Source of the DNA: Branchiostoma floridae
Taxonomy: Eukaryota; Chordata; Leptocardii; Amphioxiformes; Branchiostomatidae
Direction of reading: 5' to 3'
DNA length: 64,000 nt
Assembly: GCF_000003815.2 (NCBI RefSeq)
Contig: NC_049994.1
Location: 11,689,376-11,753,375 of the forward strand
Shown here: positions 4,911 through 63,506 of the stretch, piece after piece
How the letters are laid out: the number at the start of each line of letters is the position of its first letter
How positions within the stretch are numbered: the stretch's first letter is position 1
Notes under the pieces: generated by a model
Database searches by the model: none
What the model was told of the DNA's origin: nothing
What the model saw: only the letters and a program-made list of their open reading frames with translations
Position numbers and translations under genes: made by a program

Positions 4911-5469
4911 ACATTACATGCAGGTGACTTTGTTACCCCCTACGTCGCCATTTTGGGGAACATACCTATTTTGGGGGGAGGGGAAGACATGGTAAAGGGC
5001 CGCATGGCGAAACACATCAGATATGCATTTAGAGTTGGTGACTGCAAGATTCGTATTCGCACTGACAATGTCATCACTCTTACATAGTATGCAGGCAGCG
5101 AAATGCCAGCTTAAAACTTCATCGCCGTTTGATACTAAATGTTCAACTATGTAAATACCATTAGCTTCATGGAGTAAATCTATTTCTTCCCACGGTTAGG
5201 CGCACCTGTAACTTTTTATGAGCAGGGATAAAACGGTCAATTGGATAAAAGCTTTCCACTTACGTGGTGCAAGTTTACGAGTCAAAATAAAGAGTATTTG
5301 TTCAGAAAGCCGATGAATGTACCAAATCATCATCCATCTAATTTGTCGTAAGGCATACAGAAAAATGCTATCAAGTTGTAAAGTAAAATTCCCTCTAGCA
5401 ATGCATGTCAATCACTAATAATGTAAAGCAGTGCAATAGGGGCAAAACCTTACATGCCCTACTCTAATT

Positions 5470-5700
5470 TCGAGACCTATCTACAACTAAAATATTATGG
5501 CCATGGCAGATACAGAACACGAGATATCAAAACCAGACGTGGATGTGTTGCTACAGTATCATAACAGGCCGGTAGGGAGTCTATTATTCAAGCATTTCAA
5601 GGTTTTCTAAAGACCTTCTCACATACCAAATATCAAAACAATTCATCCAGGTGTTCTCTAGTTTTCGTACAAATTGACATCTTCGTAACAAAGACACAGC
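5470..5700. repeat. Dispersed repeat copy (family shared with 63050-63290)
   Basis: Shared landmarks with 63050-63290, in the same order: GAGATATC, CTACAGTATCATA versus CTGCAGTACCATA, TAGGGAG, a pair of short ACATACC/ACGTAC blocks, and ATCCAGG. The copies are diverged. No terminal repeats or ORF seen, so the class is unknown. Confidence 0.55.
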
Positions 5701-6718
5701 AGTTACTACGATGTTAGCTTTGTGATTTTAAATTATGATGGGTTAGTAAAGTATAGCTACATTGTGACATTAATTAAACAAACATGTTCATCCGCGTAGT
5801 TGTCAACGCCAGAGATGGATCAGATACTACAAGGGATGCCCTTGGCACAGTACAAATCATACCTGCTTTTATGCATTACCATTATTTGTTATTCTCTGTA
5901 TGATGTTTCGTGAGTTTTAATAAAGTTTGTTTAAAATGTGTAACATGTACATGTAGAATATATTTCAGAACGCCATGTTAGATTACATTATTGTCACACA
6001 TTTACGTATCAGTGGATACGTTTGGTACCTTTTATAGCCGACGTTAGCGTAACAGTCCATCACATTGCAAAAGCTGTCACCACCTTTTCGTTATCTACGT
6101 TGGAACAAAACGATTATCTTGTTGCAGTGGGGAATAGGGTGCTGCGCTGTGGTACATGGAGTCATCCATTTTGCTCTTAACGAGAAAGATTTCGTTTGAT
6201 CTATGTCGTGTGCTGAGAGCTAATCCATTTAAAGGTCTCTAAAGGGGTGGTTATAAAATACTAATGGATCAGCCTACTCTTTCTTAGATGTCCCCAATCG
6301 CCATTTTCAGCATTTTCTATTAGAGCATGTCCTTAAAGTAAAGATGCGTGTGAACAAGTTCGTTTATTGCAGGAAAAGTTCAACATCTTTATAAGATCGC
6401 CAATTATGTTACACTGGTCATCAATCTAACACCATTGATGTCTCCAATTAACGTAAAAATGTCTTAAGCGGGTTTCTCACTGAAATCAGATAACAGCATG
6501 GCTTCAATGAGATGCTCTCTGTATTGGGATGTTGCAATATCATTCAAGTAAAATCTTTCTGAGGCCGCGGCAACGTAACAATATAGCTAAAGGGAGAGAG
6601 CGAAACACACAAAGGATTTTGTTTTTGTTTTTTTAATGGATAAAAATCGATAAACGATTTGCCAAATCGCTCGGACGCAGAGACGCCGTCTATGTGCCAC
6701 AACGACATACCTGCTTTA

Positions 6719-52376: not shown

Positions 52377-52849
52377 GTGAGTAGTATCTCCAAAGATTAT
52401 CCAACCATGGCAAAGACCGTATTTGTTGTCGGGATTATTATTGTGGCTAAAGAACTAGTTTTTTTGGGTTAAGTAGTTGTTTAAGATTAAGGTTATTTAG
52501 ATGTGATATGATACAATGTATTTTTGTTGGGAATTTGGTATCTATGTTTTCTGTTATTCAACACTCCTCATTACAAAGGCTTCAGGTAGTTCCTTCAGCT
52601 AGCAGTATTTGCCACTTCTTTCAAATTACCAAACTTTAATGGTAAGGGCAATCTGTTCTTGTCATGAAACATTTTCAATGAAATGAAAGTTTATATATCT
52701 AGATGTTTGCAACATAAAAAAATTAGATGTTTATTACAGCATTTTTGCAGCCTGATGTAGCTAAGTCCTCATTTACTATTTTATTAGCTTAATAAATACA
52801 TCATGTGTTAACCGTCTGTTGCGACCAGTATCTGATTCTACCTTCTTTG

Positions 52850-53299
52850 CCAACATTGCTGCCGTGTATATACCTTTGCCAAGAAGCAATCGAAAATTAC
52901 ACAGTCAGACTAGCAGCAAAAATCGCAGATAAAGATGCTGACACACGAATTTGTCAACTTCCTCGAACTCAAGAACTGGAAAATAGTCATTCAGTCTGCC
53001 AACATTGCTGCCGTGTATACACCTTTGCCAAGAAGCAATCGAAAATTATACAGTCAGACTAGAAGTAAAGATCACAAAGATAAGATTGCTGACACACAAA
53101 TTTGTCAACTTCCTCGAACTGAAGAACTGGAAAATAGACATTCAGTCTGCCAACACTGCTGCCGTGTATATACCTTTGCCAAGAAGCAATCGAAAATTAT
53201 ACAGTCAGACTAGAAGCAAAGATCTCAAAGATAGAATTGCTGACACACGAATTTGTCAACTTCCTCGAACTCAAGAACTGGAAAATAGCCATTCAGCCT
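52850..53299. repeat. Tandem repeat, three units of about 150 bp
   Basis: Units start at 52850, 52999 and 53150 with CCAACATTGCTGCCGTGTAT and include TTGCCAAGAAGCAATCGAAA and CTTCCTCGAACTCAAGAACT. Unit lengths of 149 and 151 bp change the frame, so no single frame reads through cleanly. No protein family recognised. Confidence 0.9.
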
Positions 53300-56354: not shown

Positions 56355-59300
56355 ATGAATGAGGAGGAAAAAGAAGAGCTGGCCCGAAACGTCGAGGCCA
56401 GAACTTTGAAAGCCATAAAGGCTTACATGTACGAAGCCGAGGAGAAGGAGAGGGAGGATGAGAAGAAGAACGAGATCAAAGTCATCACGGCGGAGTTCAC
56501 GTCCACCACGACTGCCCATGGGGTCAGCAGGATCGGAGATGCGGCCACGTTTGGGACCAAGCTGATGTGGTGGACAATATTTCTGGCAGCTTTTAGTCTC
56601 TTTTCCTTCCAGGTACGTGAGAGAAAAATGATATAGAAACTAGGGTTCTTGTTACACAGCTCATTGGACTTTTATATAGAAAAGTTTTGGAAACTTGTCA
56701 GTCGCCGTCATCTAATCAAGCCGTAATATACTAACTCTATAAGATAATGTTTGTCATATTTTTGGGATGCACCGTCTATAACTATCCAAATTGTACATCT
56801 GTACCCTACTTTCTGTATTTTTTTATCCTTTACATTCTTCACCGTAAACTCTTTTGCAAAGTGTAAACGACAAGTTTCTGAAGCGACGTAAATGTATTCC
56901 GGTTTTAAAGACAAATTCCGAGGACTATTGTCAAATAACCAGCTAGCGGATGAAACTGTTGCAAAAGAAACACCAATTTGGTTAACTTATTACATACACT
57001 GTTTCATGTTTAAGTAAGGAATATGATTCTATCTCTAGTAAATAGATATAGTTGCGGTTTTTTTTTTGGTAAATGTTTTTGTTGAATAATACATTTCATA
57101 CAGTTGCCAAGGGTGAGATAAAACTAAACTTTGGGAGATCAACTTAAAATGTACCGGTACGCTATTTTTTTATAACCGGGAACTTGTCTTAAAAGTAAAA
57201 ATTTATAACACTGCACGAGAAAATCTAAAGTAAAAAAAATGCCCACTTGACAATACTTACTCAGAAACATATTGGCTCATTAATTCTACATGATGGCTGA
57301 AACTGTATGATATTGTGAGTGTTTAATTATGTGAAAGCAGAGTATTTGATTCTAATTCTAATACATATTTTCTTTACAGGCTTACTCGTTGATCATGATG
57401 TATTTCAGCTATCCAGTTGTCGTCAAAATCAAGGTAAGAATAACAGTCACCAATTGAAATGTGAAATAATTCAGGAACTGATACATTTTTTAAAAATATC
57501 GGAACTGAGTTTACCACATGATGACATCGAAATGCACATAGTAGATGATTTGTGTTCAAAGATTCCTGTCAACTACATTTATTTTCTCTGGGAGGGAGAC
57601 TATTTCGATCTTTTAACCCTATTCAGACCGGGCTTTTTTGGTCAACCCTTTGGGGGTGGCTTTTGAGGCCCTCCCCTTCTAAGTCTTCTAACTCTTGAAC
57701 AACTTATTGTAAAACCACCAAATCAGGGAATAATGTAAATATGATATCTGACGGTTCTAAAATTTTTGACGCTATTATAACTTAATATGACGTAATTATA
57801 ACGTCATCATTTTGATTAAATGGGCTGAACCCATGAAAATAGGGTACTCCCAGAAAACGTCAAGGTATACGACAATAATGTAACAGCCAGCGCAGATAAC
57901 AGAATTATAATGTTTGTTACAACTTGTGTTGCCAATAGTATCTTGGGCAACACCCACTTGTAAAACATTTTACTACATCTGTTCTCTTAAAAGATGTGGG
58001 AGATATTAGTAGACTAACGTATGGGTACGGTTATCGGATATCAGGTGAAACATGTAAGCTCTCCAAGAAGGCAATCGTAATCAATGAACCCTGATTATTT
58101 CATCAGTACTGGACAGCTGTAATCTTGGCTTACCCAATACAACCAATAAACGAGCACACAGCCCATTATAGCACGACATTGGTGCTGATTTATTGCATGT
58201 TCGATTTCAATCTACACCTTTGACCGAGCTTTCCTTTAAAAAGCATTTCGCCAAGGACGCAAACGATGGTCTGTATTTGCTTGAATGGCGATATACGTAG
58301 GTTTAGATTTCTGTATACTTCTCTCATTTTGTGTATTAATAACTTTGTAAAATCTAAGAAATGCCAAATTACTTAGTAAAAGAACGCACTTTATCACAAG
58401 AATCTATAACTTTAGAACTGAACAGGGAACATGAAATCTTTCTTCACCAAAATAACGAAGATATGTTTTTTCCACATTATAACAAGGTCGTGGATACAAA
58501 ACACATGGCGTTTCCATCCGTGACCATCTGCAACAACAATCGGCTGAAACGATCATCGCTGACCGGGACCCACTACAGCAGTCTGTACGATATTGATGTG
58601 ACTTCAAGGGAAAATATTGAGGTAAAATGCACCAAGAAATATACGACCATTTGTTGTAAAATAATTTACGTAGACTTTTAGAAGCTAGCCTATTTAGTAG
58701 TTATTACAATGTTATTCCATTAGTAGTTGTGATGAAATAGTATTTTCATTGAATTTAGAAGAAAATGTCATAGTGCAAGTTATGCTCAAAACGTGCCCTT
58801 GCTTTTGTTGTTGTATTTGTATCAGTGAATAAGCGAGCTACCACGTGTATTGTCTAGGAACTTAGGGGATACTGTTTCAACTTTTAAAACAACTTTGCAA
58901 TAGCAAACATTGAACACTTATTCCCATGTTTTATTCATTTGCTTGTTGTTTAGTTGTTAAAGCAAAACAAATAGATAGCAAAGTTTCCAGATTTCCAGAT
59001 TTCAAACGTGTTATGGTTTGTTTCCTGTTGTAGAAAATGCTGAACACCAGTGTTGAAGCAATCACACGGGGTGACCTCGAGGATCTACTCCTCAGGGTCG
59101 CCAGGCTACAGAACAAAACTGCACACTATCGCCCCCAAAAGTTGTCCGGTAACGACAGCGATACTGGACTAACGTCAGACGGACAAGGCACCTGTGACGA
59201 GCTATCAGGAACCCCGTGTATGTCAACTGACAGCAGACGGAAACGGGACATCTCACGCGCGTCAAATTATGATAATGCGGAAGATGCTGACTACTATGAT

Positions 59301-62300
59301 AGATATGAACCCTACAAAAGGATGAGCGATGATTTCTTAAGAGGCTTGTATGATGGCACTTATACATCATCCACTGCCAGATTGTGGAAGGGTACTTTTC
59401 TCCAAGATGGCGATAACGAAGATGGAGGAGATATGTACTTCCGTAATGGTTCTCTAACCTGGTTAGAACCGAACGAAAATCAATTACTCGTCGGGGCCGT
59501 ACCCGTGATGTCGGCGACTCATAGTTACGAAAGTATCCGGAGATCAGAGAGATCGACGAGTCAGGATGAGAAGAATATGCTAACTTTGACAGCCGGTGAC
59601 GCCTCTAGTTACAACGAGTCGTGGAAACTGTGTTCGGACATGGGGAAACAACTCTGCACTCTGCGACAACTCCGAAGCGCACACCGGTCCGGGTATCGTA
59701 ATGCTAAATGGGGATACTACAGTGAAGAAGGACGGAAGGCAATGGTCAGTGAAGACTGTAGAGATAGCGTGGATCTATGTGAGGAGTGTTACGATGACGC
59801 CTTGATGACTAAAACAATGGATGAAGACGAGTCTCTTCCTGCATACTGCTGTAAACAAACGTTCATGATTACAGAAGAAGAGTACTACAGCTACGAGCAG
59901 GCTGCGTTGGGATGCAAAGAACGTGAACTCCGCCTTTGCTCGATGGAAGTCATGAAGCAAGCTCACAGGGATGGTTTCAGGAACGAAGCGTGGGGCTGGT
60001 TCGTCCGGAATGACAAACAAATCTCTTTAACGGAGAGATGCAACGTGAGCAGGATGGTGCCCCGAAACAGGACTGTCTGTAACACAACCTTAGTGTACAT
60101 CTGCAGCAACGAAACGGAACCTGCGACCGCTGCCCCAACTGCGACCGCTGAGCCAACGACCCCCGAACCAACAGCTACTCCAGTCTACTGCAACGAGACA
60201 GATTATGAGTGCATGGGCTGTAACATAACCGAGGAAGTTAACTGCTATGTCGTAGACTACTTCGAAACTGTGCCAGCGGACTGTCATGGCGACACCATTC
60301 CCATGATTCCAATCGAGATGCAGGCGCATGCGTACTGCTGTGATTACTCCACGTGCACCCGGTCGCCCTGCAGTAGTCCGTGGCCCGGATGTAGCAGCCC
60401 GCTAGGTTTAGAAAATGGCCGAATCATGGACATGTACATTACAGCTTCATCTGCAGAACCAGCTTTTCCCGCCCACCACGCCAGATTAAACGCACGAAAT
60501 GCCTGGTCGAGCTTGTCCAGCGATCCAAGTCCCTGGCTACAAGTAGACCTACGAAGAAGGTTGATGGTAACAGGAATCATTACACAAGGTTTTGAATCAA
60601 GCTTCGTGAAATCGTTTCGGTTCAAGTACAGTAGAGACGGCTCGGAGTGGTGGACGTACAAGGAGTACTACGGAGAGAATATGTTGATTTGTGGCAACCA
60701 CGATGACAAGAGCTACAACCACCAGCACTTCGAGAGGCCGTTTGTTGCCCGTTACGTTAAAATCATGCCAGTAGATTGGAACGTTCTTCCTCGCATGCGT
60801 ATAGAACTGCTAGGATGTGATAAGATGGACTGTAATATTTCACGTCCTTATCAAAGAGAGGAGTTTCCTGATCCAGCCGGGCTGCAGTGCCTGGGGGAAG
60901 AGTGCATGACTAGTGTAAGCAGCTACCGCGGAGCTCTCAGTCAATCAGCCACGCTTACGTGCGGCGCCTGGAAGTGTCCAAACAGGCATCCAGACATGTG
61001 CTTGGAGGAGAACTATTGTCGCCCCTTCACTGGACATGGGGATACCCGTTTGGCATGCCCATGGAACTCTGCCGCACCTTTATCCGACACGTCCCTATCT
61101 GGGGACGACGCCCTGATGCCGTGCTCTGCCATAGACATTTGCAGGATCAACGAGGGAGACAAAGACACGGCTCAACCGACGAAACGATTGTTTTACCATC
61201 ACCAACACGCTCTGCAGTACTGTGAAGAAAGAGAGATGCACTTGTGCACTATCCAGCAGCTCACGTTCATGCATGTCTCTGGAAAACGTACCAAGAAATG
61301 GGGCTGGTTTGAAGCTGAGGGGAAAGAAGTCGTGTTGTCTGAAGGTTGCGGCAAGTACGTCGGGGAAAACTGCTACCAAGGTTTGTTTCCTATCGTTCCT
61401 AGTGCCGCAATCAGCCGGCCTGCGTATTGCTGTAGACCAACGTTCAGCGTTACGGATAAGAAGTATGAAATGCAACGCGATGCCAGAAAGAACTGTAACA
61501 AGATGGGTCTCCAGCTCTGCACGGTTGAGCAAATGCGAGCGGCACACAGGGCCGGGTACAGACTTCAGGGTGGAGCCTCAACTAACCTGGAGGACAAACA
61601 GCCAAAGAAAGCAGCCTGGTACTCCAGGCCAAACGGACTAGGGTTGATAGAAGAAAGTTGTGGCTGCCGTAAGGGGCGTGAATGCTACAAATCGGTCGTC
61701 ATCACCTTGGTGAACGAAAAGAAGCGTCCATCAAAAGCAATGTGCTGTGAGAAAACGGTTTTGCTGACGGAGACAGAACACTTCGAGTTTGAGAACGCGT
61801 CTCTAGACTGCGCTAGACACGGCATGCAGCTCTGCGAACTAAATCAGCTCTCTGAGGCCCACCAAGATGGCCACCGGGACAGATCCTTCGGCTGGTTCTT
61901 CGACAAGAAGAGAGCGGCTTCTCTGCCCAAACACTGCAACAACACGAAACATGAATGTGTGGAAAAAGTAACACTAGCTCCTTTAACCAGTCTCCTTCCT
62001 GTAGGCGCCTACTGTTGCAGTCCTCCTCTTAAGAGAGTGGTGAACGAAACAGGACCGTTCGTCTCCCAGTGTTATACCTACTTTCCAACATGCAATAATC
62101 CAATAGGAATGGAGAACGGCAACATTCCGGATCATCAGATTAAGGCCTCGTCGTACAAACCCGAGTTCGGAGCTCACAAGTCCCGTCTTAATCTAAAAGG
62201 TGCATGGATCAGCGAATCAAGCATACCGGGTAAAGAATGGCTGCAATTGGACATGGGAGAGGTACGCATCGTCACAGCTGTACTTACGCAAGGCCACGGC

Positions 62301-63506
62301 CTTAGTAGTGAGCAGAGTTGGGTGGAAACGTATTCCTTATCTTTTAGCATCAACGGAATCAAGTGGTGGCACTACAAAAACGCCACCACCAACGAGGTCG
62401 TTGTGTTCAAAGGAAACGACGATGGGGAAGCTATTCAACACCAGCATCTTCCAAGGGCGGTTGTGTCCAGATACGTTCGGTTTTATCCGGCTAGGTTCGT
62501 AAACAATATGGCGTTGAGAGTGGAGCTAGTTGGCTGTACGCTTGACGAGTGTGACATCAAGCAAGACATCAAGGGCGTCAAGTTGTTCAATCAAGGTTCA
62601 CTGGTGTGCAAAACGTATGAATGCATCAATGGAAAGGGCCACACCTACAGAGGAACTAAGAATGTGACGATGAACGGCCTACCATGTCAGAGGTGGAACA
62701 CGGATGATCCAAACCCCCACTGCTATTCTCAGACAAAGTAAGGAATACATTTTGAATTTATACACAGGCAATACTTACATCACAAGATAAATGGATATTA
62801 CCACAAAACACAGTAAAACTGTGAGCTATTATTTTCATTTCTATAACGACTTAGTGTTCATCTTCATGTTACATATACAGATCATCCTTCCAACAGTAGG
62901 CATTAGTCCCCTTGAACACAGACGTGGCCAGGTATCGACTTCAAAGTAACGTTGACCCTGTCATGTATTTTATCCGGTAGCTATATTTTAGTCAGTAAGT
63001 AAATCGCAGATGCACAGTTTACTTTTTAAAAACATACTCTCTGCCCCAAGACCTATCAACCGCTCAAAAATCACGACCGAAGAAAGTACAAAACTCGAGA
63101 TATCGAACCGCTGCAGTACCATAGCAAGTCCCTAGGGAGCCCAAAATCTAAATGTGTCAAGGTCTCATCAAGACCTAACCACGTACAAATCTCAAGACAA
63201 TACATCCAGGCATTATGGAGTTATGATGGTCAACTACACACATAGACACAAACACTACGGAAAACATAACCCTTTAGCGAAGTTAAAAATGTTATACGTT
63301 CTTTTGTTCTATCAGGTACCCCCACCGATGCCTGGTCCACAACTACTGCCGTAACCTGCTGGATGACCCGACCCCCCGGCCCCGTCCCTGGTGCTACACC
63401 TCGGAGAAGTCGGAGAAAGGCTGGGAGTTCTGTGAGATCGAGCAGTGTGAGCTGGCCAGGAACAACCTGGGCTTCATCGGTGTGGAGGGCGAAGGGGACT
63501 GGGCAG
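56355..63506 (+). CDS. DEG/ENaC-type ion channel with a giant modular ectodomain (partial, continues past window)
   Basis: Exons 56355-56612, 57380-57433, 58487-58621, 59034-62737 and 63316-63506; phases 0, 0, 0, 2, 1 all match; about 1447 residues so far. Exons 1-3 are DEG/ENaC: charged cytoplasmic start, HG gating motif (TAHGVSRI, 55-56), TM1 (about 67-92), FPSVTICNNNRL (113-124). Exon 4 starts with a finger-like helix (KMLNTSVEAITRGDLEDLLL), a furin-like RRKR (217-220), an acidic stretch, then Cys modules 1-2, a Thr/Pro linker, F5/8C 1, kringle 1, Cys modules 3-5, F5/8C 2 and the first half of kringle 2, completed in exon 5. TM2 and the thumb must lie downstream. The family makes trimeric sodium channels gated by protons, peptides or force. 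Kringles and discoidin domains are not part of the family core, so the model needs transcript support. The exon 3 acceptor (ATAACAAG) is weak. Confidence 0.8.
59235..59246 (+). other. Furin-type cleavage site RRKR in the channel ectodomain
   Basis: SRRKRD lies at residues about 216-221, about 125 residues after TM1, in the finger-like region. Vertebrate ENaC alpha and gamma are furin-cleaved in the finger. Cleavage here is inferred from the motif. Confidence 0.55.
59590..60110 (+). other. Cys-rich modules 1 and 2 of the channel ectodomain
   Basis: Both follow the pattern C-x3-G-x-QLC-x3-QL-x2-AH-x2-GYR-x4-WGW/Y (CSDMGKQLCTLRQLRSAH, CKERELRLCSMEVMKQAH). Module 1 closes with AYCC; module 2 shows no clear CC close. 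Layout recalls Link-type modules, but the CC ending is different and the family is not certain. Confidence 0.55.
60360..60830 (+). other. F5/8C (discoidin) domain 1 of the channel ectodomain
   Basis: Starts CSSPLGLENGRIMDMYITAS, contains PWLQVDLRRRLMVTGIITQG and YSRDGSEWWTYKE, and ends ARYVKIMP...MRIELLGC, the complete discoidin pattern. Such domains bind phospholipid, carbohydrate or collagen. Confidence 0.88.
60831..61140 (+). other. Divergent kringle 1 of the channel ectodomain
   Basis: CLGEECMTSVSSYRGALSQS, then CGAWKCPNRHPDMCLEENYC, RPFTGHGDTRLACPW and MPCSAIDIC match kringle cysteine order (YRG, NYCR, PW, C...C), but with extra residues and no clear PWCYT. Confidence 0.6.
61185..62030 (+). 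other. Cys-rich modules 3-5 of the channel ectodomain
   Basis: Three copies: CEEREMHLCTIQQLTFMH, CNKMGLQLCTVEQMRAAH and CARHGMQLCELNQLSEAH, each ending in a CC pair (AYCC, AMCC, AYCC). Module 4 has an insertion before its tryptophan. Confidence 0.6.
62070..62550 (+). other. F5/8C (discoidin) domain 2 of the channel ectodomain
   Basis: CNNPIGMENGNIPDHQIKAS, then EWLQLDMGEVRIVTAVLTQG, FSINGIKWWHYKN and VSRYVRFYP...LRVELVGC. Closely similar in layout to domain 1. Confidence 0.88.
62590..63470 (+). other. Kringle 2, split by an intron
   Basis: CKTYECINGKGHTYRGTKNV and LPCQRWNTDDPN lie in the giant exon; HNYCRN, PRPWCYT and GWEFCEIEQC lie in exon 63316-63506. Joining at the phase 2 intron restores a canonical kringle, which supports the splice call. 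Confidence 0.88.
63050..63290. repeat. Dispersed repeat copy (family shared with 5470-5700)
   Basis: GAGATATCGAACCGCTGCAG, then TACCATAGCAAG, TAGGGAGCCC, GGTCTCATCAAGACCTA, AATACATCCAGGCATTATGG; ends near ACACAAACACTACGGAAAAC. Lies in the intron that splits kringle 2. Confidence 0.55.

Follow-up and report, generated by a model that had tools for sequence, protein, structure and literature searches.

Compact channels of the DEG/ENaC family (ASIC1-5, FaNaC and ENaC alpha, beta, gamma and delta) are the closest well-described relatives of the gene analyzed here, and share with it two transmembrane (TM) helices, an HG motif, an FPSVTICN strand and a GxS filter; the roles of the HG motif and the filter are described in PMC7308080 and PMC8791634. 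Vertebrate ENaC subunits also have a GRIP domain between finger helices alpha1 and alpha2 (PMC6197857), which PMC8791634 describes as unique to ENaC within the family. Tethers linking DEG/ENaC channels to the matrix are presented in PMC7958617 as a core feature of the mechanosensitive complex whose nature is scarcely known, and a tether model for MEC-4 and ENaC appears in the review PMC10148893. The gene in question lies near the end of a 64,000-nucleotide stretch of the Branchiostoma floridae genome (C16:11689376-11753375, from an assembly of 513 Mb in 431 contigs), here called the window; the end of the window falls inside the gene. As predicted, the gene encodes a complete DEG/ENaC subunit with an insert of ~1,300 residues, made of adhesive modules, in the finger.

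Gene model and channel core

An initial annotation, made from the window, proposed that exons with the HG motif, TM1 and FPSVTICN run into a 3.7-kb adhesive exon and then into half of a kringle. The five window exons (56355-63506) do join in phase: their edges are AG/GT, their phases are 0, 0, 0 and 2, and the stop-free join gives 1,447 residues in which Pfam recognizes the ASC, F5/8 type C and kringle families. ASC covers residues 48-150 (profile 1-105 of 455, E 2.9e-21), and the start methionine of exon 1 is also that of P0001, the closest predicted protein. The remainder of the channel, for which the annotation advised a downstream search, was found in the 4.8 kb beyond the window on the same contig, where six further predicted exons continue in phase and supply the rest of the fold and TM2 with its GIS filter. 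Downstream of the window on this strand, the ASC model also matches the DNA at 1.2 kb (profile 129-234) and again at 4.5 kb (profile 403-455, TM2) from the window's end.

The completed prediction is a two-TM DEG/ENaC subunit of 11 exons and 1,836 residues. ASC scores 287 bits (cut-off 23.6) in two stretches, profile 1-105 and 129-455, and in the PDB 28 sequences, every one a DEG/ENaC, match the C-terminal half at E<=0.001. The motifs stand at residues 55 (HG), 113 (FPSVTICN), 1476 (GHQKED) and 1764 (GIS). A hydropathy scan (19-residue mean >=1.2) gives two regions only, TM1 at 65-108 and TM2 at 1747-1785, with no signal-like hydrophobic segment at the start of exon 4. The annotation would have been undone by a second gene that starts with a signal peptide and has no TM2 downstream, and the locus is not of that kind. 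Read by eye, the C-tail has no PPxY, the pattern that we take to represent the PY motif. In ENaC the C-terminal PY motif is well conserved (PMC8791634).

Where the insert enters the channel can be read from phmmer alignments of the two halves. Residues up to 131 align with ASIC1 up to positions 106-110, depending on the chain, and the alignment restarts at residues 1469-1471, equivalent to ASIC1 158-162, again by chain. The end points of the two alignments in ENaC are 127-128 and 248 (gamma), 116 and 230 (beta), and 138 and 276 (alpha). The insertion point of the head is in the finger, between the post-TM1 strand and the GHQ helix, which is alpha3 in the ASIC helix names that we use for placement. 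As aligned, this interval contains the site of the protease-sensitive GRIP domain of vertebrate ENaC.

Modules of the insert

The insert is an imperfect tandem repeat of the order Link-F5/8-kringle, in which stretches 331-868 and 863-1440 align with each other (E 7e-69). It is made up of five Link-like modules, two F5/8 type C (discoidin) domains, one kringle and one kringle remnant; residues 150-1447 hold 68 cysteines and 17 N-glycosylation sequons. In the 1,447-residue part, Pfam reports F5/8 type C in two stretches (E 1.4e-43), a complete kringle spanning the junction of exons 4 and 5 (E 6.9e-18, profile 1-79 of 79) and Xlink in five stretches (E 7.3e-17; 61.8 bits for the whole protein, cut-off 27), and the Cys-modules that the annotation had left unnamed are resolved as Link-like by this search. 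No EGF family match was found by Pfam at E<=10 in the 1,447 residues or at E<=0.001 in the 1,836.

Every Link-like module has the core CxxxGxQLCTxxQLxxAHxxGxRxxxWGW, and Xlink is found at E<=1 in 14 of the 18 family modules when these are scanned singly. Module 1 matches the family profile at E 1.4e-37, although it is itself in the training set of that profile. With a profile of the 18 modules, 16 PDB sequences are matched at E<=10, and each is a Link-module protein; aggrecan alone is significant (3.4e-8 for the whole sequence, 0.014 for the best single stretch), and the other 15 fall between 0.024 and 0.54 (LYVE-1 0.024, TSG-6 0.062, CD44 from 0.13). The cysteine that follows the G-F/G-I turn in aggrecan and LYVE-1 is missing in 18 of 18 aligned modules. 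By these profiles, the five Cys-modules of the insert are Link modules, and we class them as divergent because of the missing canonical cysteine.

A structure model of window positions 61104-62561 (mean predicted local distance difference test score, pLDDT, 70.1) is usable for F5/8 domain 2 only, which is predicted to have the jelly-roll fold of neuropilin b1 and factor VIII C2. None of the matches listed by fold searches with the model falls on the Link-like modules, an absence that is not evidence against a Link fold; the fold of the Link-like modules therefore rests on the sequence profiles. Aligned with plasminogen, the kringle has the six cysteines plus two extra ones. The remnant that ends repeat unit 1, which the Pfam scan does not recognize as a kringle, aligns locally with the true kringle at a score of 64 (maximum of 500 shuffles, 56). 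Coordinates of all these features are collected in Table 1.

Table 1. Predicted exons, modules and motif of the amphioxus gene (window numbering; residues of the predicted protein)
Feature	Position	Strand	Residues	Remarks
Exon 1	56355..56612	+		start codon, cytosolic N terminus, HG motif (56517-56522), first part of TM1
Exon 2	57380..57433	+		remainder of TM1
Exon 3	58487..58621	+		post-TM1 strand FPSVTICN (58511-58534), finger start; phmmer matches FaNaC1, ASIC and ENaC chains
Exon 4	59034..62737	+		giant insert, 3,704 stop-free bases
Furin-type motif RRKR|D	59235..59246	+	217-220	linker ahead of first Link-like module; kept in P0001
Link-like module 1	59601..59858	+	339-424	Xlink 20 bits alone, under cut-off 27
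Link-like module 2	59883..60113	+	433-509	Xlink 22.9 bits alone
F5/8 type C (discoidin) domain 1	60387..60836	+	601-750	Pfam; coagulation factor V/VIII chains
Kringle-like remnant, end of repeat unit 1	60879..61022	+	765-812	local alignment to true kringle
Link-like module 3	61191..61439	+	869-951	weak Xlink alone, E 0.016
Link-like module 4	61464..61754	+	960-1056	Xlink E 0.0018 alone
Link-like module 5	61779..62024	+	1065-1146	Xlink 29.8 bits alone, sole one of five above cut-off 27
F5/8 type C domain 2	62088..62546	+	1168-1320	
Kringle, first part	62622..62737	+	1346-1384	
Exon 5	63316..63506	+		kringle second part (to 63448), start of linker to second channel half
Exons past window (L009)	65180-65455, 65942-66077, 66456-66663	+		window numbering continued
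Exons past window (L009), continued	67043-67117, 67888-68049, 68512-68823	+		last exon with stop

Three other observations concern the surroundings of the gene and the search models. A three-unit tandem array (151-bp units, 92% matches) occupies window positions 52848-53296, ~3 kb upstream of the gene. The DNA pattern for a GLYVG-type filter has two matches in the window, both outside the gene (0.29 expected; 3 of 100 shuffles reach two). The ASC family model exceeds its cut-off in one of 14 control genomes, that of Thermotoga maritima, which is odd for an animal channel family.

Related proteins and loci

Searching the database with the complete protein gave five hits. One is P0001 (LOC144906232, 1,832 residues), from a B. 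floridae x B. belcheri hybrid assembly, 92% identical across the entire query (100%); four more, from coral and oyster, have F5/8 type C or kringle domains and no ASC listed. Identity to P0001 is highest in the kringle-remnant region 751-860 (98.2%), the core 1431-1790 (97.8%) and the kringle (95.7%), falls to 89-93% for the F5/8 and Link regions, and is lowest of the 11 regions in the linker 151-340 (80%). When the core alone was used (2,173 candidates of 1,010-3,213 residues), eight proteins were found, all eight from Branchiostoma and all eight with F5/8 type C and kringle; this search requires shared five-residue words and may miss distant giant DEG/ENaCs. The search with a paralog from C1 gave 23 proteins, including the Branchiostoma fusions P0013, P0014 and P0015, the annelid protein P0034, a sea cucumber protein with ASC and no other modules (P0028), a B. 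belcheri protein with F5/8 type C, SRCR and kringle and no ASC (P0023), and 17 other kringle proteins.

Predicted fusion proteins, 11 in all, come from B. floridae, B. lanceolatum, B. belcheri and the hybrid assembly, and include those of other cephalochordates, in which the annotation had suggested looking for the fusion. Their public entries are labelled as uncharacterized or hypothetical proteins. In the B. floridae genome the fusion loci number at least 11: this gene, five at C16 12.25-12.30 Mb, three at C6 22.02-22.08 Mb and two at C1 20.77 Mb. Among the 38 candidates scored, of 703, the composite insert was found only at loci that also hold ASC halves, and a free-standing copy could lie among the unscored candidates; locus counts are lower bounds. 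The other matches to the insert cover F5/8 domain 1, one of them extending 46 residues further.

Several paralogs carry the junctions within single reading frames. L022:2424-5237 is one open frame with the TM1 half, Link, F5/8 type C, kringle and, read by eye, GHQKNDFILQC, and in L010:5541-9530, L013:6120-9998 and L016:3252-7247 single frames run from F5/8 type C and kringle through the ASC half to TM2. Because these junctions sit within uninterrupted frames, the fusion is independent of predicted splicing. The central proposal of the annotation, that a very large modular head belongs to a single DEG/ENaC polypeptide, is supported by the downstream TM2 exons, by P0001 and ten related Branchiostoma predictions, and by the unspliced paralog junctions.

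Some neighbouring and related loci are of interest in their own right. On the minus strand of C6 (22.07 Mb), L020:3768-7747 is a fusion paralog broken into frames of 798 and 530 residues, either a pseudogene or an assembly error. Within the C16 cluster, L014:881-4684 has a 1,268-residue open frame that by eye resembles a retrotransposon endonuclease/reverse transcriptase. On C13, a further DEG/ENaC gene has long collagen-like GPEGPEG repeats nearby (L028:1-861 and 5048-6419), downstream of the TM2 match. A different giant insert is seen in the same region of another amphioxus gene, L025:1302-4949 (C2:34.71 Mb), where, in the first half as assembled, the TM1 half, an ERRKRRE motif and a mucin-like stretch of 1,076 residues, rich in Ser and Thr (27% T, 19% S), follow one another in one frame.

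Selection and co-descent

Ratios of nonsynonymous to synonymous substitution rates (dN/dS) were calculated for paralogs, this gene's own exon being left out of the set; 1,990 bases (half) of the L012 exon and 306 bases of L015 were masked. Comparison of inserts alone gives dN/dS of 0.18-0.44 in 11 of 36 pairs, and of cores alone 0.05-0.17 in 11 of 21, the remaining pairs being saturated in both cases. For whole big exons the values are 0.11-0.38 in the 12 of 36 pairs that are unsaturated, although the pair at 0.11 has dS 3.4 and is hardly usable. By these ratios the paralog inserts are under purifying selection. Quick trees built from the core and from the neighbouring 285 residues of the insert agree on four groups and on their members (long branches are a caution given by the tool). 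More than one named species occurs in three of these groups; therefore, channel and head have descended together since before those species split.

A furin-type motif in the linker

The RRKR motif ahead of the first Link-like module has counterparts in some relatives. A furin-type motif is present in eight of 18 sequences compared (the window protein, P0001, L022, P0014, L023, L025, L024 and L036) and absent from the full-length cluster relatives P0006, P0007, P0010 and P0012, the annelid P0034 and five of five compact C221 sequences. In L022, L023, L024, L025 and L036 similar motifs follow the post-TM1 strand, and all six non-C221 B. floridae sequences have one, versus none of the five compact C221 sequences. 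The count covers relatives of the B. floridae C16 and C6 genes in place of those genes themselves, and is without L031, L035, L037, L038 and L039 (no frame, masked, or exon ending early); outside it, the N-terminally truncated P0008 has two motifs near its start.

Shuffling the 120-residue segment produces such a motif by chance in 9.8% of cases for the window and 5.5% for P0001, and in 1-12% per segment across all those compared. Two more RX[KR]R matches occur in the window protein, at residues 123 and 1656. A universal rule was considered and rejected, with the motif in only eight of the 18 sequences; the pattern across the linkers suggests a tendency, without amounting to a rule.

A possible matrix tether and its alternatives

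From the identity of the modules we infer anchoring or sensing by the head, just as we infer ligand binding, a surface channel, conductance and gating for the subunit. We lean, by a small degree, towards a DEG/ENaC subunit that carries an intrinsic tether to the extracellular matrix, which furin-type cleavage at RRKR may condition. The insert would project from the finger as an adhesive head, in which the Link modules could bind glycosaminoglycan-rich matrix, the F5/8 type C domains membranes, collagen or glycans, and the kringle basic or protease partners. Pull or ligand binding would then be relayed through the finger to the thumb and gate, and the extracellular tether would be part of the channel itself, replacing a separate tether protein or N-glycans. 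After a furin-type cut at RRKR the head would still be held at its C-terminal end, and such cleavage could decide between a head that restrains the finger and one that releases it. A kringle partner is, in principle, at hand, since kringle proteases with plasminogen-like activity are reported from cephalochordates (PMC6337849). For a delta-ENaC construct with added glycans, PMC7958617 reports an extra shear response that hyaluronidase largely abolishes. Proteins that bind hyaluronan, such as aggrecan, LYVE-1, TSG-6 and CD44, have the Link-module fold.

Several points weigh against an intrinsic tether of this kind. The insert evolves at several times the rate of the core. The kringle keeps, in the alignment to plasminogen, one of the two acidic positions that we take to form the lysine site. 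The Link-like modules are without one canonical cysteine and have extra ones, and most of them score below the Pfam cut-off singly; therefore, their binding of hyaluronan is uncertain. As to cleavage, the linker segment has a single furin-type site, the four full-length cluster relatives have none, and ENaC activation needs two cuts according to PMC8791634. In PMC7958617 hyaluronidase leaves the shear response of wild-type delta-ENaC unchanged, and thus matrix tethering is not universal in the family.

The rival explanation with the most weight, because of the clustered loci and the faster evolution of the insert, makes the head a recognition or chemosensory receptor for microbes, glycans, peptides or a soluble partner, whose binding gates the channel with no mechanical tether. 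The groups of five loci on C16, three on C6 and two on C1, together with this gene, resemble receptor families, the divergence of inserts relative to cores (dN/dS ranges above; core 98% and linker 80% identical to P0001) fits such a role, and within DEG/ENaC the member FaNaC is FMRFamide-gated by name (PDB chains). However, the named modules belong mostly to matrix- or membrane-binding families, and pairwise dN/dS is below 1 throughout, as whole-region and not site-wise values; we consider a receptor possible but rather improbable. It is unlikely, in our judgement, that the subunit is non-conducting alone and acts as a regulatory or matrix-anchoring partner in a heterotrimer, or that its head is cut by furin-type proteases to alter gating. 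The retention of RRKR in P0001, within the least conserved of the regions compared, would agree with this, as would the division between compact C221 and other B. floridae sequences, but HG, GIS and TM2 are intact and a single cut would leave the head attached. The motif is also missing from the four full-length cluster relatives and the annelid protein, and neither its frequency in shuffled segments nor the matches at residues 123 and 1656 make it rare here.

Very improbable is a gene-model artefact, that is, two neighbouring genes misjoined or a pseudogene. The splicing of the gene is predicted, some public models of relatives are damaged (P0009 seems to skip exons, and P0011 and P0008 are without TM1), and one C6 copy is split into two frames. 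Against this stand the unspliced paralog junctions, the colinearity of P0001 over its full length, the paralog insert dN/dS below 0.5 (in a set without this gene's exon), the congruent core and insert trees and an exon 4 start without a hydrophobic signal-like segment. The reading as a separate gene or mis-splice was rejected on these grounds together with the downstream TM2 exons and the hydropathy scan.

Comparison with known systems

The annotation held that DEG/ENaC ectodomains lack such modules. This is too absolute: modular DEG/ENaCs have precedent in C. elegans EGAS and the annelid P0034. The literature search found no report of Link, F5/8 and kringle modules on a channel, nor of ENaC, degenerin and kringle together (most subscription papers lay outside the search, and absence from print is unproved).

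Between the alignment end points, compact channels have far fewer residues (~51 in ASIC1, 113-137 in ENaC beta, gamma and alpha) than the ~1,300 finger residues of modules in the amphioxus protein. EGAS-1 to -4, described in PMC10424705 as EGF plus ASC, are likewise DEG/ENaC proteins with an added extracellular module, but there the named module is EGF; our comparison is with that description. P0034 (Paralvinella palmiformis, 1,332 residues) is similar in having ASC interrupted (profile 100/111) by modules that include a kringle. Its order runs from ASC 1-100 through MAM, kringle, LDLa and CUB to ASC 111-320; unlike the amphioxus protein it has MAM, LDLa and CUB in place of Link and F5/8 type C, and it is a single gene prediction ending before TM2. 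The hyaladherins with Link modules (aggrecan, LYVE-1, TSG-6 and CD44) are the sole PDB relatives of the amphioxus modules in the profile search, and differ from them in the canonical cysteine and in the new cysteines (QLC, AYCC) that the amphioxus modules have gained.

The GRIP domain of vertebrate ENaC is inserted between finger helices and has polybasic motifs for cleavage (PMC6197857, PMC8791634); by alignment the amphioxus insert would have a similar placement, with a candidate motif of this type. In contrast to GRIP, which is short, made of beta strands and holds an inhibitory tract, the amphioxus insert consists of adhesive modules; the amphioxus protein further differs from vertebrate ENaC in having one polybasic site in the linker segment and no PY motif in the C-tail. 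Tentatively, and with some doubt, the finger interval alpha1-alpha3 might be a general docking port for extracellular modules in DEG/ENaC, with the amphioxus insert a protease-conditioned matrix tether. Such a port would hold Link, F5/8 and kringle modules or a mucin-like stretch in amphioxus, MAM, kringle, LDLa and CUB in the annelid and GRIP in vertebrates, and gating by matrix pull and GRIP-type proteolytic gating would be two uses of it.

The coupling of DEG/ENaC channels to the matrix is an open question, with knowledge of tethers described as scarce in PMC7958617. Modules of matrix- and membrane-binding types may give a channel a built-in anchor to its surroundings, and a natural channel with Link, discoidin and kringle modules in the finger makes the question testable. 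The fusion family, found here in non-vertebrate chordates, the cephalochordates, occupies the interval that serves proteolytic gating in vertebrate ENaC.

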